A stretch of 32,466 nucleotides of DNA from Gemmatimonadota bacterium. GTDB taxonomy: Bacteria > Gemmatimonadota > Gemmatimonadetes > Gemmatimonadales > Gemmatimonadaceae. The stretch's first letter is position 1; each line of letters opens with the position of its first letter. The stretch is from positions 1 to 32,466 of the forward strand of contig JAJTGR010000001.1 of assembly GCA_021299375.1 (NCBI GenBank), read 5' to 3'. The notes under the pieces were generated by a model, which was not told where the DNA came from, ran no database searches, and saw nothing but the letters and a program-made list of their open reading frames with translations. Shown piece after piece: positions 680 through 14,035 of the stretch. The translations under genes were made by a program, and so were the position numbers.

Positions 680-765
680 CGCCTCTCCCCCGCCATCCTC
701 GCATTTCCCTCACTCCCGTGGTTGACGCGCTCTCGACGACGGTTGAGGTTACTCTGCTATAGAAC

Positions 766-3021
766 GTGCGATATTCCGCCTCTCTTTTCCTCGCTGCCGT
801 TGCCGCCGGCGCTTTCGCGCTGGGGCGTCCGCTCGCCGCCCAGGATCTCTCCTGTGAGCGCGGGGACCGCGAGGTGCGGACGCTCCGCTTCAGCGGCAAT
901 CGCGCCTATCCCGCCTCGGTCCTCGCCGCCACCGTCGCCACCCAGCCGTCGTCGTTCGCCAATCTGCCGCTGGTCGGCGAGCGCCGCTGTCTCGACCCCG
1001 TGGAGTTCGCGCGTGACGTCCAGCGCCTCCTGACGCTCTATCGCCGCCGCGGCTTTCCCGACGTGCGCGTCGATACCATCGTGCGTCCCGTCACGCCCGT
1101 CGCGATCGACATCACCTTTGCGATCGACGAAGGCAACCCGATGCGGGTCTCGGCCTTCGCCCTGCGGGGCACGGATCGGCACCCCGCCATCGCCCAGGCG
1201 GCGCGCAACTTCCCCGTCCAGGTGGGTGGGCTGTTCGATCGCGGCGCCCTCGAAGCCGGGCGCGACACGCTCGTCCGACGCTTGCGCAACCTCGGCTGGC
1301 CGCAGGCCGAAGCGTTGCTGGCCTACACCACCCGAACCGCCCAGCGAAGCGCCGAAGTGGAGGTGGTGGTGGTGCCCGGCGCGCGGGCACGCATCGGACG
1401 GGTGGCCCTCGACGTGGAGGCGCCAACGGGGCGCCGGCATGTGTCCGACGCGCTGATTCGTCGCGCCATGGCCCTGCACACGGGAGATTGGTACTCGGCG
1501 CGCCAGCTCATCGACGCCCAGCGCAATCTCTACCAGACCGATGCCTTCCAGCGCGTGGATCTGCAGCCCGACAGCATCCAGCCTCCCGGTGACACGATCG
1601 TCAACCTCACCGCCTATCTGGTCGAAGGCGATCGCTATGCCGCCAATGGCGGCCTCGGATGGGCCACGCTCGACTGCTTTCGGGCCCAGGGTTCCATCAC
1701 GGACCGGGATTTCCTGCCGTACGCGCAGCGGCTCGAACTCACGGCGCGGCTGAGCAAGATTGGCATCGGGGAACCCCTCAACGGTGCGCCGGAGCTGTGC
1801 CAGGGGCAGGCGCGCTCCGATCCGTACTCCCGGACGCTGAACTACTACACGTCCATGACGCTCCGGCAACCGGTGCGGGCGGACCAGGCGCGCGTTCCGT
1901 CGGTGACGGTCTTCAGCTCGACGTTGTCGGAGTTTCGCGCCTACCTGCGCCGCACGCCGATCGGTGGAGCGGTCTCGCTTGCCGACCCATTCGCGCGCCG
2001 CGCGGCTGTCCGCACCCCGAGCACCTTGTCGTACCAGCTGGAGCTTGGGCGAACCGAGGCCGAGCCGGCGTTCTTCTGCGCCGTGTTCAACGCCTGCGAT
2101 GCAGAGCTGCGCAGCTTCCTGCAGCGGAACAACCGGCTGGCGGCGCTCGAGTTTTCGATCTCGCGTGAGCGCCTCAACGACCCCATACGGCCCACGGGTG
2201 GGACGGTCGTGCGGGCCACGCTGCGACACGCGAGCACACTCATCGGCTCCGACCGCACGCAGCAGTTCAATCGGGCCACGGGCGATGTGTCGTGGTACCA
2301 GCAGTGGGGCGGGGCCACGATCACGGCGCATGTGCGCGCCGGCATCGTGGGAGGGCGGGGAAGTGGCGGTGGTGTCGGCCGCTTCGTCCCGCCGCAGGAG
2401 CGGCTGTACGCCGGCGGGCCCACGACCGTGCGCGGCTTCCGCCAGAACGAGCTGGGCCCGGCCGTGTACATCGTGAGCGGCTACACCGCCGTGGTGGAAA
2501 ACGGGACGACGTTTTATCGGGTCGACGAGCGGACCGTCGCCGAGCGCGTGGTCCCGACCGGCGGCAACACACTGGTCGTGGGGAATCTCGAAGCGCAGTG
2601 GCCAAGCCCTGTGCTCCCGCGCGTGCTCCAGCTGGCGGCGTTCGCCGATGCCGGGCGGCTGTGGAATCGCGGCGCCACGCAGCGCGATGCGGCGCTACGC
2701 GCCGATGGCGCGATCATCAAGGTCACACCCGGCCTCGGCGTACGTGTCGCCTCGCCGTTCGGGGCCATCCGCGTGGACTTCGGATACAATCCGCATGCGT
2801 TGCCGGCGGGCGCCGCGTATTTCAACGCCCCATTGCAGGCGGGGGTGGCGCCCCTCTACTGCGTGAGCCCGGGCAACCAGCTGCCGGTGCGCGCGTCGCT
2901 CCTCGCAGGGGCGCCGCCGGTCCAGGACGCGGGGAACTGCGGCTCGACCTATCGACCCATCCGGCGCACCGGCGTGCTCGGTCGGCTGAATCCGAGCATC
3001 TGGATCGGGCAGGCGTTCTGA
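766..3021 (+). CDS. tamA: TamA/BamA-like outer-membrane protein (Omp85 family)
   Basis: 751 residues starting at GTG. A signal peptide (about 1-26, ending LAAQ) is followed by POTRA-like modules (about 33-290, alternating beta-alpha-beta with a typical LYRRRGFPDVRV stretch). A C-terminal beta-barrel of about 430 residues carries the diagnostic loop-6 motif VRGF at 555-558 and ends in a terminal Phe. Omp85 proteins fold and insert proteins into the outer membrane. The directly coupled tamB downstream argues for the TamA role rather than BamA, though length and POTRA count alone do not settle this. About nine cysteines in the mature chain (for example near 430-440 and at the C-terminus) are unusual for a barrel and may form loop disulfides. 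The stop codon overlaps the tamB start (TGATG). A TATAGA lies only two bases before the GTG and no Shine-Dalgarno sequence is at normal distance. Confidence 0.88.
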   Translation: MRYSASLFLAAVAAGAFALGRPLAAQDLSCERGDREVRTLRFSGNRAYPASVLAATVATQPSSFANLPLVGERRCLDPVEFARDVQRLLTLYRRRGFPDVRVDTIVRPVTPVAIDITFAIDEGNPMRVSAFALRGTDRHPAIAQAARNFPVQVGGLFDRGALEAGRDTLVRRLRNLGWPQAEALLAYTTRTAQRSAEVEVVVVPGARARIGRVALDVEAPTGRRHVSDALIRRAMALHTGDWYSARQLIDAQRNLYQTDAFQRVDLQPDSIQPPGDTIVNLTAYLVEGDRYAANGGLGWATLDCFRAQGSITDRDFLPYAQRLELTARLSKIGIGEPLNGAPELCQGQARSDPYSRTLNYYTSMTLRQPVRADQARVPSVTVFSSTLSEFRAYLRRTPIGGAVSLADPFARRAAVRTPSTLSYQLELGRTEAEPAFFCAVFNACDAELRSFLQRNNRLAALEFSISRERLNDPIRPTGGTVVRATLRHASTLIGSDRTQQFNRATGDVSWYQQWGGATITAHVRAGIVGGRGSGGGVGRFVPPQERLYAGGPTTVRGFRQNELGPAVYIVSGYTAVVENGTTFYRVDERTVAERVVPTGGNTLVVGNLEAQWPSPVLPRVLQLAAFADAGRLWNRGATQRDAALRADGAIIKVTPGLGVRVASPFGAIRVDFGYNPHALPAGAAYFNAPLQAGVAPLYCVSPGNQLPVRASLLAGAPPVQDAGNCGSTYRPIRRTGVLGRLNPSIWIGQAF

Positions 3022-6000
3022 TGGCACCGCGTCGGCGCACGATCGTGCTGGGCACGTCGGCCGTGCTGCTGCTGCTGATGGCGGCGGTGGCGGGCGGCAT
3101 CGTGGGGCTCACGCAAACCGATCGGGGGCGGGCCCTCATCCTGCGGACGCTGCTGCCGGTGGCTCGGGCCGCCATCCCGGGACGGCTGTACGTGGGCGCG
3201 GTGCATGGTACGCTCTTCACCGACCTCACCATCGACTCGCTCGACATCCGCACGGCAGACGGGCGGCCGTTCGTGAGTTCGGGGCCCATCCGCGCCACCT
3301 ACGACCCGCGGGACCTGCTGAACGGACGCATCATCGTCAAGTCGCTCGACGTCCTGCGGCCGCAGATCACGCTCATCGACTACGGCAACGACGACTGGAA
3401 CTGGAAGCGGGCGCTGCGCCGTGGGCCGTCCAGGCCCTCGACGGGGCAGAGTCGCTTCGGTCGCTTCATCGTGATCGACACGACCACGCTGCACGAGGTG
3501 ACGTTCGTGGCCCGCCTGCCGTGGACGCTGTCCGACACCCTCACGGGCGCCAAGCGGGACAGCGCGCTCACCTACAACCTCACGCGACTCGATGGCGAGA
3601 TCCGTGCCGAAGACAACCGGCTGGTGCGCGTCCATCGCTTCGTGCGCGGCCACGTCGCGCTTGGGCGCACGCGGCTCGCCGATCCCGACAGCGCCGGGCA
3701 GCACTTCCCCGTGCGGCGCCTCGATGTGGTATGGGTGTATCCGCCGTTCTGGTTCAGGAACCTGGAGGGCGACTTCACGAAGCTCGGCGACACGATGTTC
3801 GTCGCCGGCACCCGTTTCGCGCTTCCTGGCTCGCGGGCGCACGGCAACGCGAAGATCGTGTGGGGCGGCGGCAAACCCGTGCGATATGACGTGCAGCTGC
3901 AGCTCGACACCGTGTCGCTGTCGGATCTCGCGTGGATCAATGCGACGGTGCCGCATATAGGCGGCGGGCGCGCCCGGCTGCGCATGCGCAATGATCCGGC
4001 GAACCTGAACATCATCGACTACGCGATCACGAACATGGACGCGCGGTCCCTCAAGTCGCGACTACGCGGCAACATGACGTGGGGCGTGGGCGGTCCGGTC
4101 ACCCGTCTCACGGACGTCGACCTGTCGCTGGAGCCGGCCCACACCGACCTGCTGACGTGGTTCAACGGCGAGCCCTTTCCCTACGACTGGCGCGGCGCCG
4201 TGACGGGGCGCGTGAGCGGGCGCGGTGGCTACCTCACCGACTGGCGGCTCGACGAGGCGCGCGTCGCCTTTGCCGACGCGCACGTGCCGGGCGCCGTGTC
4301 GAAGGCACGGGCCGCGGGGCGACTCAACATCTTCACGCCGGCGGAGGCGATTCTCAAAGGCATCGACGCCGACATCGAGCAGCTCGACTTCCGCACCCCG
4401 CGGTTCGTGAATCCGAATTTCATGGAGCTCAACGGGTTTGCGCGCGGTCGTGTGCGCCTGGACTCGCTCTGGTACGATGCGCGCTTCTCCCGGGCCGACG
4501 TCGAACTCGTCGACGGACCCGGTCAGCCGTCGCGCTTCACCGGGAGCGGCCGCTACACGCTGGTGACCGAGGGGGTGCGCTTCGATGTGAATCTCGAGGC
4601 GGTGCCGCTGTCGTACACGACCATGTCGCGCTCGTACCCCGACATGCCGCTGCGCGGATCGGCGGTGGGCCGCATCGTGGCCAAGGGGATGGCCGAGCAG
4701 TTCGACGTGCAGACCACGCTGGCCGGCGAAGGGGGCGAGTTGACGTTCACCGGCGTGGCGGATGCCTTTGGGACGACCATGGGCGCCACCGGCGACTGGC
4801 GGCTGCGCGGTGGGAACCTGCAGAGTCTCTTCGGCAGCAGCAGCCTGCCCACCACCACGCTCAACCTCTCGGGGACGATGGACCTGCGGGCCGATGTCGA
4901 TGCGCAGGACGAGTTCATCATCAGCTCGATCCGCGGCCCGCTGCGCGCCACGATCGACCAGTTCTCGCGGGTGGCGGACGCCCGCCTATTCGGTGGCGTG
5001 GCGGCCGTCGTCTTCGATTCGGGGCACGTGCGGGTCGACACGCTGGCCATCGAAAGCTCGGCGTTGCGCACGGTGGCGCGCGGTGGCCTCGGCCTCGACC
5101 GCAGCCGGCGTGACTCGCTGCACGTCTCCGTCGCGATCGATTCACTCGGCGGGCTGCGCCCGTGGGTGTCGCCCAGCGATTCCTCACGCCGCGCGCTGCT
5201 GCTCCCGACGGACACGCTGCGTGGCAGTGCCGAGTTGGCCGGGTCGCTGTTCGGGTCGATCGACACGCTCGACACCGAGGGTCTCGACCTCGACCTGCGG
5301 GCCGACTTGCGCGACATCGCGGTGACAAGTGCGCGCTCGATGCGGGCCGCATTCGACCTGCGTGTACGCGATGCTCTCCGTGGAGCGAACGGGACCCTCA
5401 CGGCGTCGGCCGATTCGCTCTCCGTGGGCGGCCTCGATGTCGCCTCGGCGGTGGCACGGTCGACGCTGCGGGGCGGACTCGCCGAGCGCTTCGGCGTGGC
5501 GTTGCGTACACCGTCGGAGTCACGCATTGCCGTTGGCGGCGGAGTCACGCGCCGTGGTGACTCGACGAGCGTCCGTTTCGACACGATCACCATTCGCGTC
5601 GACAGCGGGTTGGCGGCGCCCCGCGGCTTCGCGCTCACGGGGCCGGCCACACTGCTCCTGCTGGCCGATGGACGCGGGCAGCTCGATTCGCTGGTGCTCC
5701 AGCATACGGACACGGGGCGCATGGTCGTCCGCGGCCAGCTCGGTGATTCGGGTGCGGTGCGGGGCTCGTTCGTCGCTGATCGGGTACCGCTCGGTGATCT
5801 CGGGCGACTCCTGCGTCGCTCGGGGTTGGCACGCGGGTCGGCCAGCGCGGATCTCACCGTGCGTGGCACCCGCATGGCACCGCGGATGGATGGCACCGTC
5901 CGCCTCGTCGATGCCGTGGCCGGGCGGGTGCGGTTCGGGGAGCTGTTCGCGCGGGCGCACTACGACTCGCTGCGACTCACGCTCGATGGGGCGCTGCGCG

Positions 6001-7604
6001 TGCAGGGAGAGGCCGCGCTCGAGGTGGCGGCCTCCCTGCCGCTCGACCTCGCACTGGCGACGCGCAGCACCCGCCGGCTCAATGAGCCGCTGTCGGGGCG
6101 CATCGTCAGTGATCGCACCGACCTCGCGCTGCTCGAATCGCTGTTCCCCGACGTCACTCGGGCGCGCGGTACGCTCGAAACCAACGTGCAGCTCACCGGC
6201 AGCTGGGACCGGCCCCGCCTCCGCGGCCAGGTTCGGCTCGACAGCGCATCGCTGTCGCTGGACAACCTCGGCATTCGTCTTGACCAGGCGCGAGCCGACA
6301 TCGGGCTGACCGGCGACAGCATCCTCATTCGGCGATTCGGGGCCATCAGTGGCGCCCCGAGCGATTCTGTCGGCCTGTCCGGCGTCATCGGCATCACGGA
6401 GATCGCGAGGCCCTCGTTCAACCTGCGGCTGGCCGCCAACAACTTCCTCGCCGTGGACAAGGCCCGGACGGCGACCCTCACGCTGACCACGACCACGCCC
6501 ATCACGCTCACGGGGTCGGGCGAGGCGCCCCTGCTGCGGGGGGCGGTGCGGGTCGATCGCGGGCGGGTGTATATCAGCCAGCTGGCCCAGCGGCGGGCCC
6601 TCGATGTGAGCGACAATCTCGACCTCATCGACACCACGCGCTTCGGTGTGAACGCCTTGTTACCGTCGGCGTCCGGGCTGGTCATGCGCAACCTGCAGCT
6701 CGACAACGTGCGCATCGGCATCGGCGACGACGTGTGGCTGCGGTCGCCCGAGGCGAACCTCAAGCTCGGGGGGCAACTGCGCGTGACCCGTGCGCGCTCG
6801 CGCGACGCGTCTGGCGCTCAGCTGGCCCTGTCCGATTCGCTGACCGTGCAGCGCGGCACCTACCAGCTCAACCTCGGCATCGCCCGTCCGAGCTTCGAGG
6901 TGGAGCGCGGCGTGGTGCGCTTCTTCGGCGATCCCGATCTCCAGCCGTCGCTCGACATCACGGCGCTGTACACGGTGCGCGAGACGCGCGCCAACTCGAA
7001 TCGGCAGGATGTGCGCATCCGCGTCAACCTCGGTGGGACGCTGGAGCGTCCGTCGCTGACGCTCACCAGCGCCGACAATCCGCCATTGCCGGAGAGTGAC
7101 ATGCTCAGCTACCTGGTGACCGGGGAACCCGCCTACACGGTGCTCGGCAGCACCTACGCCGAGCAGGGCGCCACGCTCGCGCTGCGCCTGGCGGGGTCGT
7201 ATCTGTCGAGTCGCCTGGCGGGGGGGCGCTTCGACGTGGTGCAGGTGGAGCCCACCGCGCTCAACCCCGGCGATGCCGCCAATTTGCGGCAGAACGGCCT
7301 CGGCATTCTCGCCTCCACCCGCGTGGGTGTGGGGGGGCAGGTGGCCCGCAACACCTTTCTGACGTTCAGTACCGGCCTCTGTGGTCTGGCCCCGCAAGCG
7401 GGCGCCAGTGGTGATGCCCTGTCGCTGTTCGCCCAGGGGCTGGGCGTCAAGGTGGAACGGCGCTTCGAGGGCGGCCTCAGCCTCCAGATGGGATTGGAGC
7501 CGGGGTCGAGCGCCCAGGCCTGCGGCCGGCTGGGGATCAGCCGTACGTTCCAGCAGACGCCTCCGCAGATCGGCATCGACTTCTTCCGGTTCTGGACCTT
7601 CTGA
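3021..7604 (+). CDS. tamB: TamB-like translocation and assembly module protein (DUF490, AsmA-like)
   Basis: 1527 residues from the ATG that overlaps the tamA stop by one base. An N-terminal membrane anchor (about residues 8-29) precedes a very long repetitive beta-strand region typical of the AsmA-like/TamB bridge proteins. These span the periplasm with a lipid-binding groove. The C-terminal DUF490 domain (about 1190-1527) has the family-typical stretch SFEVERGVVRFFGDP, followed by the PxLPESDMLSYLVTGEP-type segment. TamB works with TamA in outer-membrane protein assembly, and TamB-like proteins also carry phospholipids between membranes. E. coli TamB is about 1259 residues, so this is a long version. 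The start is fixed by the TGATG coupling and by the anchor lying immediately after it. The gene stop again sits in a TGATG, leading to a small possible ORF. Confidence 0.93.
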   Translation: MAPRRRTIVLGTSAVLLLLMAAVAGGIVGLTQTDRGRALILRTLLPVARAAIPGRLYVGAVHGTLFTDLTIDSLDIRTADGRPFVSSGPIRATYDPRDLLNGRIIVKSLDVLRPQITLIDYGNDDWNWKRALRRGPSRPSTGQSRFGRFIVIDTTTLHEVTFVARLPWTLSDTLTGAKRDSALTYNLTRLDGEIRAEDNRLVRVHRFVRGHVALGRTRLADPDSAGQHFPVRRLDVVWVYPPFWFRNLEGDFTKLGDTMFVAGTRFALPGSRAHGNAKIVWGGGKPVRYDVQLQLDTVSLSDLAWINATVPHIGGGRARLRMRNDPANLNIIDYAITNMDARSLKSRLRGNMTWGVGGPVTRLTDVDLSLEPAHTDLLTWFNGEPFPYDWRGAVTGRVSGRGGYLTDWRLDEARVAFADAHVPGAVSKARAAGRLNIFTPAEAILKGIDADIEQLDFRTPRFVNPNFMELNGFARGRVRLDSLWYDARFSRADVELVDGPGQPSRFTGSGRYTLVTEGVRFDVNLEAVPLSYTTMSRSYPDMPLRGSAVGRIVAKGMAEQFDVQTTLAGEGGELTFTGVADAFGTTMGATGDWRLRGGNLQSLFGSSSLPTTTLNLSGTMDLRADVDAQDEFIISSIRGPLRATIDQFSRVADARLFGGVAAVVFDSGHVRVDTLAIESSALRTVARGGLGLDRSRRDSLHVSVAIDSLGGLRPWVSPSDSSRRALLLPTDTLRGSAELAGSLFGSIDTLDTEGLDLDLRADLRDIAVTSARSMRAAFDLRVRDALRGANGTLTASADSLSVGGLDVASAVARSTLRGGLAERFGVALRTPSESRIAVGGGVTRRGDSTSVRFDTITIRVDSGLAAPRGFALTGPATLLLLADGRGQLDSLVLQHTDTGRMVVRGQLGDSGAVRGSFVADRVPLGDLGRLLRRSGLARGSASADLTVRGTRMAPRMDGTVRLVDAVAGRVRFGELFARAHYDSLRLTLDGALRVQGEAALEVAASLPLDLALATRSTRRLNEPLSGRIVSDRTDLALLESLFPDVTRARGTLETNVQLTGSWDRPRLRGQVRLDSASLSLDNLGIRLDQARADIGLTGDSILIRRFGAISGAPSDSVGLSGVIGITEIARPSFNLRLAANNFLAVDKARTATLTLTTTTPITLTGSGEAPLLRGAVRVDRGRVYISQLAQRRALDVSDNLDLIDTTRFGVNALLPSASGLVMRNLQLDNVRIGIGDDVWLRSPEANLKLGGQLRVTRARSRDASGAQLALSDSLTVQRGTYQLNLGIARPSFEVERGVVRFFGDPDLQPSLDITALYTVRETRANSNRQDVRIRVNLGGTLERPSLTLTSADNPPLPESDMLSYLVTGEPAYTVLGSTYAEQGATLALRLAGSYLSSRLAGGRFDVVQVEPTALNPGDAANLRQNGLGILASTRVGVGGQVARNTFLTFSTGLCGLAPQAGASGDALSLFAQGLGVKVERRFEGGLSLQMGLEPGSSAQACGRLGISRTFQQTPPQIGIDFFRFWTF

Positions 7605-7675
7605 TGGCGGCGTACCCGCAGGTCGTGCCCCCGCGTGTTTCGGGTCAGCGAGTTGGCTCGTCCCTGAGCAGCTGA
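7604..7675 (+). CDS. possible 23-residue coupling ORF between tamB and the hybrid kinase
   Basis: An ATG overlaps the tamB stop (TGATG at 7602-7606). It opens a 23-codon frame whose TGA overlaps the kinase ATG in a second TGATG (7673-7677). The frame therefore bridges the 70-base gap exactly, as a translational-coupling leader would. The peptide (begins MAAYPQVVPP, ends SLSS) has no recognisable domain. It could also be chance, since the gap is short. No Shine-Dalgarno sequence precedes it, so translation would depend on terminating tamB ribosomes. Confidence 0.35.
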   Translation: MAAYPQVVPPRVSGQRVGSSLSS

Positions 7676-10600
7676 TGCGTCCATTTTTCACCTCCCCCAC
7701 CGTGCCGGCAGCCCAGCCCCTCTGCGATCTGCTCGATGCGATCGATCGGGGCGAGACGACGGGCGCGCGCCTCCAGATCGCCGCGGAGCTGCTGTACGGC
7801 CTCGGGTTCGATCGTGTGGTCGTCACGTTGCGGGACGCGTCGCTGAACCCGACGGTGGTGGCGCAGGCCGGGGTGCCGGAGAGCGAGTCGCTGACCGGCC
7901 TGGCCCTCAAGCCCCTCCCGGGATCCGTGTGGCGGCGGCGCTTGCCGCATCTCGAGCGCTTTCGGGTCGATGACCTGTGCCTGCTGGATGGAAGCGATCC
8001 GTGGGTCGCGCGCGAGTTCTTCGCCGCCGAGCCCGTGGTTGTCGAGGATCCCGATCGCTGGTTGCCGACGGACCTCATCGTCGGCGTCATGCGCGGCGCC
8101 CGTCATGACGTGCTCGGTATCATCAAGCTGTCCGGCCCGCGCGATGGGCGCCGGCCGAGTGCCCTGCTGCGGCGGGATATCGGGGCCATCATGCGGCACC
8201 TCGCGGCACGCATCGCCTTCGACGCTCTCGAAGCGTTGGCTCGGCAGCGGCACGAACGCCTCCAGCTGCTGCAGGAGGCGGGCGCCTCGTTCGCGCGCTC
8301 GCTGGACGAACCGGAGATCATTCGCGAGCTGGTGCGGCAGGCCCAGCGCGCCGTCCGGAGTGACGGGATCGCGATCCTGGTGCCCGATCTGCACAACGAC
8401 ATTCTCACGACGACGCTGCGGGTCGTACGCGGTGTCGAGCGCACCCGGGGGCCGGTGCGCCTGGGCGATGGGCTCGTGGCGGAGGTGGCGCGCAGCGGGC
8501 GACCGGCACGCGCGGGCGATCGGGATGCCGACCGGGCACGCGAGAAGGCCGGCCTCGCGCCCCCGCTTTCGATGTACGACATCGTCGGCGAGTCGGGGGC
8601 CGCGAGTTCGGTGCTGGCCGTGCCCGTTCGCGTGGGCACACGCCTCCTGGCGGTCCTTGCGGTCCATGCCAGTGCCAGTGACGTCTACTCCGCCGAGGAC
8701 GAAGAGGTGCTGGCGACCATGGCCTCGCAGGCGGCAACCGCCATCGCGAATGCCCGCCGGTACGCGGAAAGCGAGCGGGAGCGGCGGACCACGGAGGCGC
8801 TCGCCGACGTGGCGCGCGCCGTGGGCGAATCGCTGCGCTTGGGCGAGGTCTTGCGGCTCATCCTGCGGCATGCGGTCTCGCTGCTGGGGGTCGAAGGTGC
8901 CTGCATTGCGCTGCGCACCGGGGATTACCTGCACATCGTCGCCGCCATCGGCAGCGCCGACGTGTTGAGCGGTGTGCACCTCCCGGTGAGCGGGAGCCTG
9001 ATCGGACGGTCGGTGCTGAGCAACGAACTCGTCCTCGTGAACGAATTCGGGCACGAGATGGTCTTCAGCCGGGCCATGCAGCACCTGGCCCGCATCCAGC
9101 GCACGATCATTGCGCCGTTCGTGACCGCGCAGGGGACGATTGGCAGCATCGCCGTCATCAACCGCGAGCGGCCATTCGATCAGGACGATGGCAAGGTGCT
9201 GCAGCGCCTAGCCGACCAGGTCTCCGTGGCCATCGTGAACGCGCGCCTGTTCGAAGAGATCGAGCGGGCCACGCGCGAGTGGAAGGTGGCCTTCGACAGT
9301 ACGGCCAGTGGCATGGTGGTGCTCGAGGAATCGCTCACCGTGAGCCGCTGCAACACGCGTGCGGCCGAGCTCTGCGGTGTCGCGATCCCCACGCTGCTCG
9401 GTCAGCGTTTTCGCAACGCCCTCATCGGTCCCGACAGCAGTCCCGACGGCCGCGCGGTCGATGCGTTCATCGCCCGGGCGATGCAGCAGGGAGTGCCGGT
9501 GCGCGAGACCGTGCGGCACCTCGCCACCGGGCGGCTGTATTCGCTACTGGCGGCGCCGCATCCGGATGGCGGGTGCGTCATCACGTTCGACGATGTGACC
9601 GAGTCCTCGCGCCTCGCTGAGCAGCACGCGAAGGTGCTCGATACGGTGTCGGATGCGATCATCATCACGAGTCATGACGGCGGCATCACCTTTGCCAACT
9701 CTGCGGCACAGGTGCTGTTCGCGCGGGAGCGGCTCGTCGGGGTGTTGTCCGAAACGCTGGTCCCCGGCGAATGGCTGAGCCAGGTCAGGATGCACGAAGC
9801 GGCGGCCCGTCGCGGTGAGCGGGCGCGATATGAGTGTGAAGTGCTCCGGTCCGACGGGTCGCGTCGGGCGGTGCAGGTGAGCACGGCGCCGCTCTACGAG
9901 CTGGGGGAGATCGTCGGGACTGTCGCTTGTCTGCGCGACATCACCGAGCGGCGCGCCGAGGCAACCGCCCTCGAACGATCGGAGCAGCGGTATCGCCGGC
10001 TGGTGGACACGGCGACGGACGCCATCTTCACGGTCGACGCCAACGGCCGGCTCACCTCGGTGAATCCCGCATTCCTGCACGAGGCAGGGCTCACGGTCGA
10101 GCAGGTGCTCGGTCAGGACTTTCTCCGCCTCGTCGATCCGATCGATCGCGACCTTGCCGACCGGGAGATGCGCGCCACCCTGCGCGGCGAGCGATGCCGG
10201 GTTCAGCTGCGCTGCCTGGGGGCCTCCGGGTCGCGCCTGACCACGGTGACCACGGCGCCCTTCGAGCAGGACGGCCGAGTCGTGGGAGCGCTCGGCATCG
10301 TGCGTGACATCACGAACGATGAGGTCCGTCGCGAAGCGCAAGTGCAGCAGGCCCGACTCGCCGCCGTGGGCCAGTCGCTCGGACGCGTCGCGAATGAACT
10401 GAACAATCCGCTCGCCAGCCTGTTGGCCGTGGCCGAGTTGGAGGCGGCGTCGCCGACGTTGCATGGTGACGACCGGCGGGCGCTCGAGCAAATCCTCGAG
10501 GAAGCGCGGCGCGCCTCGCAGATCGTGGGACAGCTGCTCGACACCACTGCGGACACGCCGTCGCCGGTTGGTGGCCGGGCCCCGGTGGACCTCAACGCCG

Positions 10601-11508
10601 TGCTGCGGCGCAGCCTCGAGCATCATGGCTACTCGCTGCGGGCGGCCGGGATCACGGTCGAGCGTCAGTTGGCCGACGACCTGCCGATGGTGGAGGGCGA
10701 TGCCTTGCAGTTGCAGCAGGTGCTCTCCAACCTGATCGTGAACGCCGAGCAGGTGTTGGGTGAGCATCAGGGAGCGCGCCAGCTGGTCGTCACGTCGACG
10801 GTGCAGGGCCGTGAGGTGCGGGTGACGGTGCAGGACAGCGGGCCGGGTATCCCGGCGCTGTATCTGGCGCGTGTCACCGCGCCGATGTTCACCACGCGGG
10901 CCGCGCGCGGGCATCGGGGACTGGGACTGACGATCGCGAACACCATCGTGCTCGATCACTCTGGCACACTCGACATCGAATCACCGACCGCAGGCGGTGC
11001 CGCATTCACCGTGCGCCTGCCGATCATGACGGCCACGGCACTCTCGGCCCATGCCGAGGCCGTCGCGCGGGCCGAGTCGGAGCTGGTGGCCCGGCAGACG
11101 CCGTCGAGCGGGAGTCGCCCGGTGTCCGCGAATCGGCAGCGCCGCATCCTCCTCATCGAGGACGAGGTCACGCTTCGCACGGCGATCAGCCGTTTCCTGC
11201 AGAGCTGCGACTACGCCGTCGAGATCGCGGAGAGCGGGGCCGCCGCGCTGGCGGTCCTCGCCCATCAGCAATTCGACCTGATCCTGCTCGACCTGCGCAT
11301 GCAGGAGATGAGCGGTGAGCGAGTCTACGAGGCCATGCAGGCCGCGCTGCCGGATCAGGCCGAGCGCGTGGTGTTCGTGACCGGCGACCTGCACAGCGAG
11401 CACGCCGCCCAGTTCATCCGGCAAACCGGGCGGCCGGTGCTGGCCAAGCCGTTCACGCTCACGGAACTGGCCACGCGTATTGCGCAGCTGCTGGGCGCCG
11501 AGGCTTGA
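7675..11508 (+). CDS. multi-sensor hybrid histidine kinase with C-terminal receiver; H-box His replaced by Asn
   Basis: 1277 residues with no clear membrane segment, so probably cytosolic. From the N-terminus I read three GAF-like domains (about 15-190, 205-358, 372-529), three PAS domains (about 532-642, 652-762, 767-882) and a HisKA dimerisation region (about 888-962). A HATPase_c domain (about 1005-1115; N-box NLIVNAEQ, G-boxes DSGPGIP and GHRGLGLTIA) and a receiver domain (about 1157-1275) follow. The receiver is complete: acidic pair ED, phospho-acceptor Asp1206 in LLDLRM, Thr in VTGD, Lys in AKPF. The H-box reads VANELNNPLASLL, so residue 907, where the phospho-acceptor His normally stands (AHELNNPL), is Asn (AAT at 10393-10395). 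Autophosphorylation by the usual route is therefore doubtful. Start chosen at the TGATG overlap at 7675. It is followed after seven bases by a peptidase gene, probably in the same transcript. Confidence 0.9.
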   Translation: MRPFFTSPTVPAAQPLCDLLDAIDRGETTGARLQIAAELLYGLGFDRVVVTLRDASLNPTVVAQAGVPESESLTGLALKPLPGSVWRRRLPHLERFRVDDLCLLDGSDPWVAREFFAAEPVVVEDPDRWLPTDLIVGVMRGARHDVLGIIKLSGPRDGRRPSALLRRDIGAIMRHLAARIAFDALEALARQRHERLQLLQEAGASFARSLDEPEIIRELVRQAQRAVRSDGIAILVPDLHNDILTTTLRVVRGVERTRGPVRLGDGLVAEVARSGRPARAGDRDADRAREKAGLAPPLSMYDIVGESGAASSVLAVPVRVGTRLLAVLAVHASASDVYSAEDEEVLATMASQAATAIANARRYAESERERRTTEALADVARAVGESLRLGEVLRLILRHAVSLLGVEGACIALRTGDYLHIVAAIGSADVLSGVHLPVSGSLIGRSVLSNELVLVNEFGHEMVFSRAMQHLARIQRTIIAPFVTAQGTIGSIAVINRERPFDQDDGKVLQRLADQVSVAIVNARLFEEIERATREWKVAFDSTASGMVVLEESLTVSRCNTRAAELCGVAIPTLLGQRFRNALIGPDSSPDGRAVDAFIARAMQQGVPVRETVRHLATGRLYSLLAAPHPDGGCVITFDDVTESSRLAEQHAKVLDTVSDAIIITSHDGGITFANSAAQVLFARERLVGVLSETLVPGEWLSQVRMHEAAARRGERARYECEVLRSDGSRRAVQVSTAPLYELGEIVGTVACLRDITERRAEATALERSEQRYRRLVDTATDAIFTVDANGRLTSVNPAFLHEAGLTVEQVLGQDFLRLVDPIDRDLADREMRATLRGERCRVQLRCLGASGSRLTTVTTAPFEQDGRVVGALGIVRDITNDEVRREAQVQQARLAAVGQSLGRVANELNNPLASLLAVAELEAASPTLHGDDRRALEQILEEARRASQIVGQLLDTTADTPSPVGGRAPVDLNAVLRRSLEHHGYSLRAAGITVERQLADDLPMVEGDALQLQQVLSNLIVNAEQVLGEHQGARQLVVTSTVQGREVRVTVQDSGPGIPALYLARVTAPMFTTRAARGHRGLGLTIANTIVLDHSGTLDIESPTAGGAAFTVRLPIMTATALSAHAEAVARAESELVARQTPSSGSRPVSANRQRRILLIEDEVTLRTAISRFLQSCDYAVEIAESGAAALAVLAHQQFDLILLDLRMQEMSGERVYEAMQAALPDQAERVVFVTGDLHSEHAAQFIRQTGRPVLAKPFTLTELATRIAQLLGAEA

Positions 11509-11515
11509 GGGCGGC

Positions 11516-12295
11516 ATGTCCACGTCGCTCACGCTCTCGACGGCCGACCGTCTCACCGTGCGCTCGGCGATTGCCCCGTTACTGGCCGACGCCCGCATCG
11601 CGTCGCCGCTGACTTCGCAGCTGCTGGGCGGGGATGTGGTGCACCTCGTCGATGGCCGCGGTGACTGGCTGCTTGTGCGCGGCGCCGACGACTACGAGGG
11701 ATGGACGCACATCGGGTATCTGACGAGCTGTGCCGGCACGGAGATCACCTGGCGGATTTCGCTTGGTTGCCAGATGCGGGACGCGACCGGTGCCACGCGG
11801 GCCCTGCCGCTGGGCGCGCGGGTCGCGCCCGGGGCGGAGGTCATTGACGGCCTCGCCATTCCTCCTGAGGCGCGCGCCACACGCTTTCCGCGCGAACGCG
11901 CGGCCATCGCCCGCAGTGCTGCCACGCTGTTCACCGGAGCGAGCTATCTGTGGGGCGGGGTGACGCCGTGGGGCGTGGACTGTTCCGGTCTGGCCCAACG
12001 CGTGTTTGCGCTGCACGGCGTACCGCTGCCGCGTGATGCCTGGCAGCAGGCGGAGGCGGCACCGCAGGTGGCAGACGACGCCGACGCTGCACACGAGCCG
12101 GCCGACCTGCTGTTCTTTTCCGACCGCGAGGACCGCCGCATCACGCACGTCGGCATTGCGTTGGGCGACGGACACATGGTACACAGTGCGTTGATGCGCG
12201 GCGGTGTGCACATCGAGCGGCTCGACGCCGACGACCCGTACGTCGCGCGGCTGCGAGCCCAGTGCACGGGAGTGCACCGGGTGCGAATGGGGTGA
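11516..12295 (+). CDS. SH3-like plus NlpC/P60 cysteine peptidase, YkfC-like
   Basis: 259 residues. The N-terminal half (about 10-75) is SH3b-like, and the C-terminal half (about 130-255) is an NlpC/P60 domain. The catalytic Cys156 is in WGVDCSGL, His211 in THVGIAL and a third polar residue, His223, in MVHSA. The layout matches YkfC-type gamma-D-glutamyl-L-diamino-acid endopeptidases, which cut peptidoglycan-derived peptides. No signal peptide is visible, so an intracellular murein-peptide recycling role is more likely than wall lysis (inference). The ATG at 11516 follows the kinase stop by seven bases with a GAGGG sequence just upstream. Two alternative upstream starts inside the kinase end are less likely. 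The stop codon is followed at once by repeat array C. Confidence 0.87.
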   Translation: MSTSLTLSTADRLTVRSAIAPLLADARIASPLTSQLLGGDVVHLVDGRGDWLLVRGADDYEGWTHIGYLTSCAGTEITWRISLGCQMRDATGATRALPLGARVAPGAEVIDGLAIPPEARATRFPRERAAIARSAATLFTGASYLWGGVTPWGVDCSGLAQRVFALHGVPLPRDAWQQAEAAPQVADDADAAHEPADLLFFSDREDRRITHVGIALGDGHMVHSALMRGGVHIERLDADDPYVARLRAQCTGVHRVRMG

Positions 12296-12315
12296 CGACT
12301 GGGAACGGCGGGACG

Positions 12316-12440
12316 GCGCGAGCTAGAGGGCGCGAGCTAGAGGGCGCGAGCTAGACGGCGCGAGCTAGAACGCGCGAGCTAGACGGCGCGAGCTAGACGG
12401 CGCGAGCTAGAACGCGCGAGCTATAACGCGCGAGCTAACG
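12316..12440. repeat. 14-bp tandem array C (GCGCGAGCTAGANG units)
   Basis: Nine cores GCGCGAGCT start at 12316, 12330, 12344, 12358, 12372, 12386, 12400, 12414 and 12428, each 14 bp apart, with a decayed copy at 12440. Seven of the nine continue into CTAG, the later two into CTAT and CTAA. Because the period is not a multiple of three, the TAG/TAA triplets fall in all three plus-strand frames. The array begins 20 bases after the NlpC/P60 stop codon, after a GGGAACGGCG boundary motif. Confidence 0.95.
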
Positions 12441-12465
12441 CGCGCAACCCACGTCGCGCCCCCCG

Positions 12466-12545
12466 GTCTCGCGCCGGTTCGCTCGCGCCCTTCAGCTCGC
12501 GCCCCTCAGCTCGCGCCCTTCAGCTCGCGCCCTTTAGCTCGCGCC
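12466..12545. repeat. 14-bp tandem array D (inverted partner of C)
   Basis: Cores AGCTCGCGCC or close variants start at 12466, 12480, 12494, 12508, 12522 and 12536, again 14 bp apart; the first two are degenerate. This is the reverse complement of array C, with the switch in orientation near 12445-12460. On the minus strand it begins 12 bases after the stop of the DUF6941-like gene. Both convergent genes therefore end in sense-oriented GCGCGAGCT units. Together C and D could pair as a long imperfect hairpin. Confidence 0.93.
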
Positions 12546-12557
12546 TTCCGTCTGCCC

Positions 12558-12989
12558 TCAGCTGACCATCTGTCCCGGTCCTGCCGGCACCACCGGCGGT
12601 GCGCCGCCGCGGACATGCAGCACCAAGTCGGCGGCGTCCCGCTGGCCGATGGCGACACGCATGTGGTAGTCGCCGAGCATGTCCAGCGGCAGGTCGAGCT
12701 GCACGATGATCGGCATGTCCAGTTCCGTCGTGCCCGGCGGGGGCGGCCCGACCTCGAGTTGGGCCTCGGACGTCCACAGGTCCAGTCCGCGCGGGTTGAC
12801 CCAGCGAAGGACCATGGTGTGATGCCCCACGTCGACGGCGGTGGCCTTGAGGCGCAGCACGAACGTCGTGCGCGGGTGCAGGGCAGGGAACTGCCCGACA
12901 TGGACCGCATCGAAGATCCCCAGGATGTTCAGCTTGCCTTCCTGGGAGATGTTGGCGGCGTCGGAGAAGAGGGCGAAGGAAACGTGCAT
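12558..12989 (-). CDS. DUF6941-like hypothetical protein
   Basis: 143 residues, with no signal peptide and no membrane segment. The opening (MHVSFALFSDAANISQEGKL, then LGIFD) resembles a small conserved family I know as DUF6941, whose members share an N-terminal cytosolic-looking beta-rich fold. Sequence alternation suggests a beta-sandwich: residues about 40-60 and 85-125 read as paired strands. Function is unknown. The family assignment is from memory of the N-terminal pattern and is only moderately sure. The ATG at 12989 lies six bases after a TACTTT -10-like hexamer, so the mRNA may be leaderless. It diverges from the EamA gene across 65 bases. Confidence 0.7.
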   Translation of the reverse strand: MHVSFALFSDAANISQEGKLNILGIFDAVHVGQFPALHPRTTFVLRLKATAVDVGHHTMVLRWVNPRGLDLWTSEAQLEVGPPPPGTTELDMPIIVQLDLPLDMLGDYHMRVAIGQRDAADLVLHVRGGAPPVVPAGPGQMVS

Positions 12990-12995
12990 GGTGGG

Positions 12996-13001
12996 AAAGT
13001 A
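12996..13001 (-). promoter_or_regulatory. -10-like hexamer for a leaderless DUF6941-like transcript
   Basis: TACTTT reads on the minus strand from 13001 to 12996, with six bases (CCCACC) between it and the ATG at 12989. That is the distance expected when transcription starts on the start codon. No convincing -35 is visible. Confidence 0.4.
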
Positions 13002-13043
13002 ACGGGGCTACGGCGCAGCTACCTGCCTCGACCGGGGACCGCC

Positions 13044-13049
13044 TACATT
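13044..13049 (+). promoter_or_regulatory. -10-like hexamer for a leaderless EamA transcript
   Basis: TACATT on the plus strand is followed by GCGTG and the ATG at 13055, so the expected transcription start falls on or next to the start codon. No Shine-Dalgarno sequence and no clear -35 are present. It mirrors the hexamer of the divergent gene. Confidence 0.4.
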
Positions 13050-13054
13050 GCGTG

Positions 13055-14035
13055 ATGACCTCGTTGTCCACGGCCGAACGCCCCGTCGTCGTCCCCCCAG
13101 AGCGCACACCGGCGGCCGCGCCGCACGGGTTCAGCGCCACCGACGCCGGGCTGGTGCTCATGGCCGTGATCTGGGGGGTGAACTACAGCGTCGTGAAGGC
13201 CGGCCTGCGCTCCCTGACCCCCTTGGCGTTCAATGGCGCGCGCGTCACCCTGGCCGCTGTGGTGCTGTTCGCCGTGGCCGCCCTGGTGCGCGATGCGCGC
13301 TGGCCATCACGGCGGGACACGGGGCGTCTGCTCGCACTCGGGCTCATGGGTAATGGCGTCTACCAGGTGCTGTTCATCTTCGGCATGGCTCGTACCCGTG
13401 CCGGGGTGGCGGCGCTCATCGTCGCCGCTGGCCCGGCGTGGATTGCCATCATCTCGCGGCTCATGGGGCGTGAGCGGCTGTCGTCGATGGGGTGGACGGG
13501 CATCGGGCTGCAACTGGTCGGCGTGGCCTGCGTCGTGGGCAGCGCGCGCGGGTTCGACGGGGGACGTGAGGTCATGTTCGGCGCCGCCCTCATCGCCAGT
13601 GGGAGCATCTGCTGGGCGCTGTTCAGCGTGCTGCTGCAGCCCTATACGCAGCACGCGCATCCGCTGCATCTCTCGGCCATCACCATGGCGAGCGGCGCCC
13701 TGCTCATCGTACTGATGGCGCTCCCCGACCTGCAGCGCCTCGAGTGGATGGCCGTCCCCGCGGCGGCCTGGGGCGCGGTGGCATACGCGGGCATCGGCGC
13801 GCTGGTGGTGGCCTACCTGCTGTTCTATCGCGGTGTGCGGGTGCTCGGGCCGACGCGGACGGCCGTGTACGGCAACCTGCAGCCCATCATTGCGCTGGCT
13901 GTCGCATGGGTGATGCTGCACGAGCGGCCGACCGCGTGGCAGCTGACCGGCACCGGCTTCGTGATGGGTGGCCTGCTGCTCTCGCGCCTGGCGCGCGTGC
14001 GGCCCGCGCCGCTGGCCGTGGGAGCGCGGCGATGA
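13055..14035 (+). CDS. EamA-family (DMT) transporter
   Basis: 326 residues with about ten hydrophobic helices in two EamA repeats (roughly 25-160 and 170-310). The first opens with AVIWGVNYSVVKAGLR, the usual W-G-x-N-[YF] signature. The second closes with the YGNLQPIIALAVAWVMLHERPT pattern (Pro in the helix, Glu at its end) typical of RhaT/YdcZ-like drug/metabolite exporters. Substrate cannot be told from sequence; metabolite or amino-acid export is common in the family. Either GTG 13052 or ATG 13055 could start; ATG is preferred because of the -10-like hexamer spacing. The stop overlaps the HAD gene start (ATGA). Confidence 0.9.
   Translation: MTSLSTAERPVVVPPERTPAAAPHGFSATDAGLVLMAVIWGVNYSVVKAGLRSLTPLAFNGARVTLAAVVLFAVAALVRDARWPSRRDTGRLLALGLMGNGVYQVLFIFGMARTRAGVAALIVAAGPAWIAIISRLMGRERLSSMGWTGIGLQLVGVACVVGSARGFDGGREVMFGAALIASGSICWALFSVLLQPYTQHAHPLHLSAITMASGALLIVLMALPDLQRLEWMAVPAAAWGAVAYAGIGALVVAYLLFYRGVRVLGPTRTAVYGNLQPIIALAVAWVMLHERPTAWQLTGTGFVMGGLLLSRLARVRPAPLAVGARR

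Follow-up and report, generated by a model that had tools for sequence, protein, structure and literature searches.

To our knowledge, pseudo-histidine kinases are rarely documented, DivL being the case studied most. This accepted pseudokinase has Tyr in place of the phospho-acceptor His and is without phosphatase activity (PMC4211667). In Rhodobacterales, the DivL partner, DivK, was lost along with degeneration and truncation of the kinase part of DivL (PMC4211667, PMC9430884). Experiments on the HisKA kinase CrdS separated the contributions of individual residues: the Asn at H+4 is required for phosphatase activity only, and the Glu at H+1 for kinase activity only (PMC3510030). Exchange of the acceptor His for Ala in CrdS (H371A) abolished kinase activity and left most of the phosphatase activity, the half-life of the regulator phosphate being 2.6 min with H371A, 0.7 min with the wild type and 53.5 min for the regulator alone (PMC3510030). 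The equivalent exchange in PleC (H610A) removed both activities (PMC3510030).

The window (the complete stretch of DNA analysed, 32,466 nucleotides) encodes a 1,277 aa GAF/PAS hybrid pseudo-histidine kinase on the forward strand (7675..11508, ATG at 7675 and stop at 11508), supported by its Pfam domains and by full-length orthologs from the genus Gemmatimonas. Reading along the same strand, GAF domains occupy approximately residues 189-530 (8239..9264; Pfam GAF/GAF_2 at 213-357 and 389-520) and are followed by PAS domains of several Pfam PAS families at about residues 541-883 (9295..10323). Next are the DHp (HisKA) domain, residues 886-965 (10330..10569; Pfam HisKA at 901-956), and the CA domain (HATPase_c, 10696..11025; Pfam 1008-1117), in which the N, G1, F and G2 boxes are intact. 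A fast-evolving linker, residues 1121-1155 (11035..11139), served as a near-neutral internal yardstick for dN/dS, and a receiver completes the protein (11140..11505; Pfam Response_reg 1158-1269). HisKA scores 33 bits in the 1,277 aa protein, and both it and the HATPase_c domain that follows exceed their Pfam cut-offs, as is required of a histidine kinase fold. The protein is taken to be soluble, as no transmembrane segment is apparent, the best 19-residue hydrophobicity mean being 1.75, in the GAF part.

Codons 10390-10413 (GCG AAT GAA CTG AAC AAT CCG CTC) read A-N-E-L-N-N-P-L. The original prediction had placed Asn907 in the H-box VANELNNPL, and the codon AAT at 10393-10395 (forward strand) is confirmed in the frame that opens at ATG 7675. 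The box is otherwise canonical, and Asn907 stands where the acceptor His required of an autokinase would be. All of the remaining 27 HisKA boxes found in the source genome have His (27/27). The segment from Glu908 (H+1) to Asn911 (H+4), at 10396..10407 on the forward strand, spans the kinase- and phosphatase-specific positions (PMC3510030), and Asn911 provides the Thr or Asn that would be expected at H+4 of a HisKA phosphatase. Also present are the ATP-site residues (Asn1023 of the N box, Asp1054 of the G1 motif DxGxG, and GLGL of G2) and the residues expected of a hybrid-kinase receiver, namely the acid pair E1162/D1163, the phospho-acceptor D1206 (GAC, 11290-11292), T1236 and K1258.

Alignment with homologs, which had been proposed as a check on whether Asn is fixed in a subfamily, showed that it is. 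Asn occupies the acceptor column in 24/24 Gemmatimonas orthologs with an intact box, including those of the single-contig genomes G020, G083 and G084 (many of the compared genomes are drafts from metagenomes), whereas the 26 orthologs compared from other Gemmatimonadaceae genera all have His there (26/26), with no instance of Asn. Full-length Gemmatimonas orthologs recovered by a protein search of 40 relatives are 53-72% identical, and all have Asn. A DNA pattern for ANELNNP, which detects that exact wording and would pass over other wordings of an Asn box, has a single match in each of 24 Gemmatimonas genomes and no match in the genomes of 34 further genera of the family. Among 395 genomes drawn from across the phylum, the only matches were in Gemmatimonas (21 genomes). 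A wide spread of the Asn form was thus rejected, as this exact-wording pattern located none beyond the genus in either the family scan or the phylum-wide draw. We found no described case of a natural His-to-Asn H-box in the literature searched, which excluded most subscription journals.

At codon 907, 16 of the 24 orthologs use AAC and 8 use AAT. Mapped on the tree, the codon underwent at least eight synonymous changes and no replacement, a pattern with a chance near 3e-6 under a simple and rough neutral model with a transition bias of 3. The N box, G1, G2, the Glu at H+1, the Asn at H+4 and the five receiver residues (E, D, D, T and K) are invariant (24/24), which extends to the whole set the original claim that the N and G boxes and the receiver residues, including Asp1206, are intact. 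Pairwise dN/dS values (Nei-Gojobori, trustworthy for closer pairs only) are mostly 0.04-0.2 for close pairs in the DHp domain, 0.06-0.35 in the CA domain and 0.04-0.3 in the receiver; those of the linker between CA and receiver, at about 0.4-2, are well above all three. Conservation is lower in the CA domain than in the GAF part. By these comparisons, purifying selection acts on the DHp, CA and receiver domains of the Asn form in most species. With its acceptor His replaced across the clade and its fold under selection, the protein has two attributes of a DivL-like pseudo-histidine kinase; lack of autokinase activity and binding of a phosphorylated receiver would be predicted.

Upstream of the sensor gene is tamB (2169..7604, forward strand, start approximate), recognized by Pfam TamB and by synteny in Gemmatimonas and other genera; an Omp85 gene lies upstream of tamB in the window. 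Based on tblastn synteny, the sensor gene lies behind tamB in Gemmatimonas and in each of the other genera examined, wherever the contig reaches. The order tamB, sensor, (regulator, P1-type peptidase), NlpC/P60 and EamA recurs across many genera (window positions 763-14035, and loci L093-L138). These neighbours raise the possibility that the sensor may serve envelope biogenesis.

Downstream of the kinase gene, most of the other genera inspected carry an NtrC-type regulator gene and then, in many cases, genes for a P1-type peptidase, NlpC/P60 and an EamA transporter. None of the Gemmatimonas members and nearest relatives inspected has the regulator gene at the locus, so that Gemmatimonas does not have the NtrB/NtrC-type arrangement of a regulator encoded beside its kinase. 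NlpC/P60 is usually the next gene in the genus (in G083 a peptidase intervenes), and in the window it starts 7 bases downstream of the kinase gene (11516..12295, forward strand), in the place taken by the regulator of most other genera. Locus regulators group in a single clade, and none of the NtrC-like proteins sampled from other Gemmatimonas loci falls within it. Relocation of the partner within the genome was considered and rejected, as the most similar NtrC-like proteins fall in other clades, one of which is also represented in a genome where the locus copy is retained. Sigma-54 loss was likewise rejected as the explanation, because rpoN was found in 20/21 genomes searched, the exception being an 84% complete draft. 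The separateness of the locus clade and the retention of sigma-54 thus indicate that a specific partner was lost, rather than the whole regulatory class.

A quick tree of the sensor part places Gemmatimonas beside a sister clade (L093, L094, L166 and L171) that has deleted the kinase module; its proteins stop inside the PAS domains or downstream of them. The next relatives, g20 and g44, are joined to the others by a moderately supported branch (93); they are without regulator and without receiver, and they keep His. One of them, L099 (g20), has His and degenerate N and G2 boxes, and is also without receiver and regulator. Most simply, regulator loss predates the His-to-Asn change. The change itself may have come before or after the split from the sister clade, whose members are without the kinase module. 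Four loci within Gemmatimonas (L031, L067, L137 and L138) are truncated or broken, although some of these may be draft-assembly faults.

Damage of other kinds was observed elsewhere in the family. In genus g45 (L096 and L122) His is kept, the N-box Asn is replaced by Arg and an earlier N-box Asn by His; thus, the ATP site rather than the acceptor looks broken. The sensor of g43 (L118 and L119) is without a kinase module and is directly followed by an NtrC-type regulator. In L098 (g29) the acid pair and Lys of the receiver are replaced, and His and the ATP site are intact.

On balance, we consider it somewhat probable that the Gemmatimonas protein is a lineage-fixed pseudo-histidine kinase that acts as a receiver-binding or phosphatase switch, driven by GAF/PAS signals and ATP. 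It descends from a TamB-linked, NtrB/ZraS-like hybrid kinase that retains His in most other genera and is followed there by a dedicated sigma-54 (NtrC-type) regulator. Loss of the regulator gene took place in the clade that includes Gemmatimonas; within Gemmatimonas the acceptor His changed to Asn and has not changed since. In the present protein, the GAF/PAS part and ATP binding may set the conformation of the DHp-CA core, and the DHp face (ELNN) may bind a phosphorylated receiver, its own or that of another protein. The phosphate of the bound receiver, charged from elsewhere, would be held or removed, and output would be allosteric or of phosphatase type rather than by phosphotransfer. The invariant Asn at H+4, together with the phosphatase activity of CrdS H371A, would allow either phosphatase action or, as in DivL, the reading of a phosphorylated receiver; that the ATP site, DHp surface and receiver have all been kept speaks for a role other than phosphotransfer. 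Each of the three roles named in the original prediction, ATP-dependent scaffold, substrate of a partner kinase and phosphatase, is compatible with the sequence. Against this switch, a pure phosphatase would give no reason for the invariant Glu908 (H+1), which could instead serve in trans-kinase activity or in structure. By analogy with PleC H610A, which loses both activities, and with DivL, which is without phosphatase activity, the Asn may abolish phosphatase activity. The absence of an intact kinase module from the sister clade and from four Gemmatimonas members also indicates that the role is dispensable in some species.

A more specific proposal, which we put forward tentatively, is that of a hybrid kinase run backwards. 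The receiver would be the input, charged by another kinase or by a small-molecule phosphodonor. The DHp-CA core, which has ATP bound but no acceptor His, would read or erase the phosphate and thereby control a GAF/PAS protein linked through TamB to outer-membrane biogenesis. If this is true, the wider family would be a natural series that runs from a complete hybrid kinase with regulator to a kinase-less sensor.

A different role for the intact CA domain would be phosphorylation in trans, in which the protein forms a heterodimer with a His-bearing kinase, phosphorylates the His of that partner and has its own receiver charged in return. The CA catalytic residues are intact and selected, and E. 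coli NRII (NtrB) H139N, a laboratory-made protein with the same substitution, can reportedly still phosphorylate a partner subunit in trans. Heterodimers also form between the paralogous kinases ChrS and HrrS (PMC9491836). However, the locus has no gene for a partner kinase, and the genome shows no close paralog, the only own-genome paralog among the matches listed being 33% identical in the kinase core. We regard this alternative as unlikely.

Rather doubtful, too, is that the kinase part is a decaying remnant, on its way out after regulator loss, with Asn as a passive relic. The deletion of the module in L093, L094, L166 and L171, its truncated or broken state in the four Gemmatimonas loci and the lower conservation of CA relative to GAF would all suit decay. 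However, the other 24 orthologs keep every catalytic motif, their dN/dS is well under that of the linker, and the changes at codon 907 are synonymous only.

The original prediction also held that normal autophosphorylation is not to be expected, and named another His in the H-box as the possible exception. Chemistry very likely excludes the normal autokinase reaction, as the acceptor position is Asn and the DHp helix of the orthologs has no other conserved His to take its place. Nothing was found in support of a substitute acceptor in the DHp domain that would retain autokinase activity, the nearest largely conserved His columns being 984, in the DHp-CA linker, and 1095, in CA, and this alternative is highly improbable. 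Finally, a base error at 10393-10395 or a mutation private to the source genome, for which the 116-contig draft state of the source assembly gave some cause, is refuted by the 24 Asn orthologs, which come from independent assemblies, use two synonymous codons and include single-contig genomes.

Throughout a genus that apparently has cultured species among its members, the acceptor position is fixed for a residue that cannot be phosphorylated, in a protein whose ATP site and receiver are still selected. Its relatives show several stages: a kinase accompanied by its regulator, a kinase on its own, the Asn form, and a protein whose kinase module is deleted. They provide a natural series for the fate of a kinase after partner loss, a progression so far described for DivL and DivK in Rhodobacterales, and make non-catalytic kinase function directly testable in culturable bacteria.

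The closest precedent is DivL, found in Caulobacter and other alphaproteobacteria, which is similar in its PAS domains and DHp-CA core, its lineage-wide replacement of the acceptor His and its retained ATP site. DivL has no autokinase activity, and the same would be predicted for the Gemmatimonas protein from its sequence. The loss of DivK together with damage to the DivL kinase part in Rhodobacterales parallels the partner loss and kinase-part damage among Gemmatimonas relatives. Unlike DivL, the Gemmatimonas protein has Asn rather than Tyr, GAF domains and a C-terminal receiver with all phosphorylation residues, belongs to an unrelated lineage, and has no DivK or CckA neighbours among the genes identified in the window. 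Membership in the DivL family proper, which needs Tyr (Ala in one species) and CckA/DivK, was rejected on the same grounds. Among NtrB/ZraS-type HisKA kinases, ZraS is the closest solved kinase core by sequence (9jfj, E 1.7e-29), and the orthologs of other genera adjoin an NtrC-type regulator, whereas the Gemmatimonas form is without both the acceptor His and a regulator gene at the locus. CrdS of Myxococcus xanthus is likewise a HisKA kinase of an NtrC-type regulator, but the Ala of H371A is engineered, CrdS has no hybrid receiver, and its cognate regulator is present. In an evolved Corynebacterium glutamicum strain, ChrS likewise continues to influence signalling despite being catalytically dead (PMC9491836), although there the change is a laboratory-arisen frameshift in CA and His is kept. 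The Gemmatimonas protein is thus best placed as a pseudo-histidine kinase that is distinct from DivL in residue, domains, lineage and partners.
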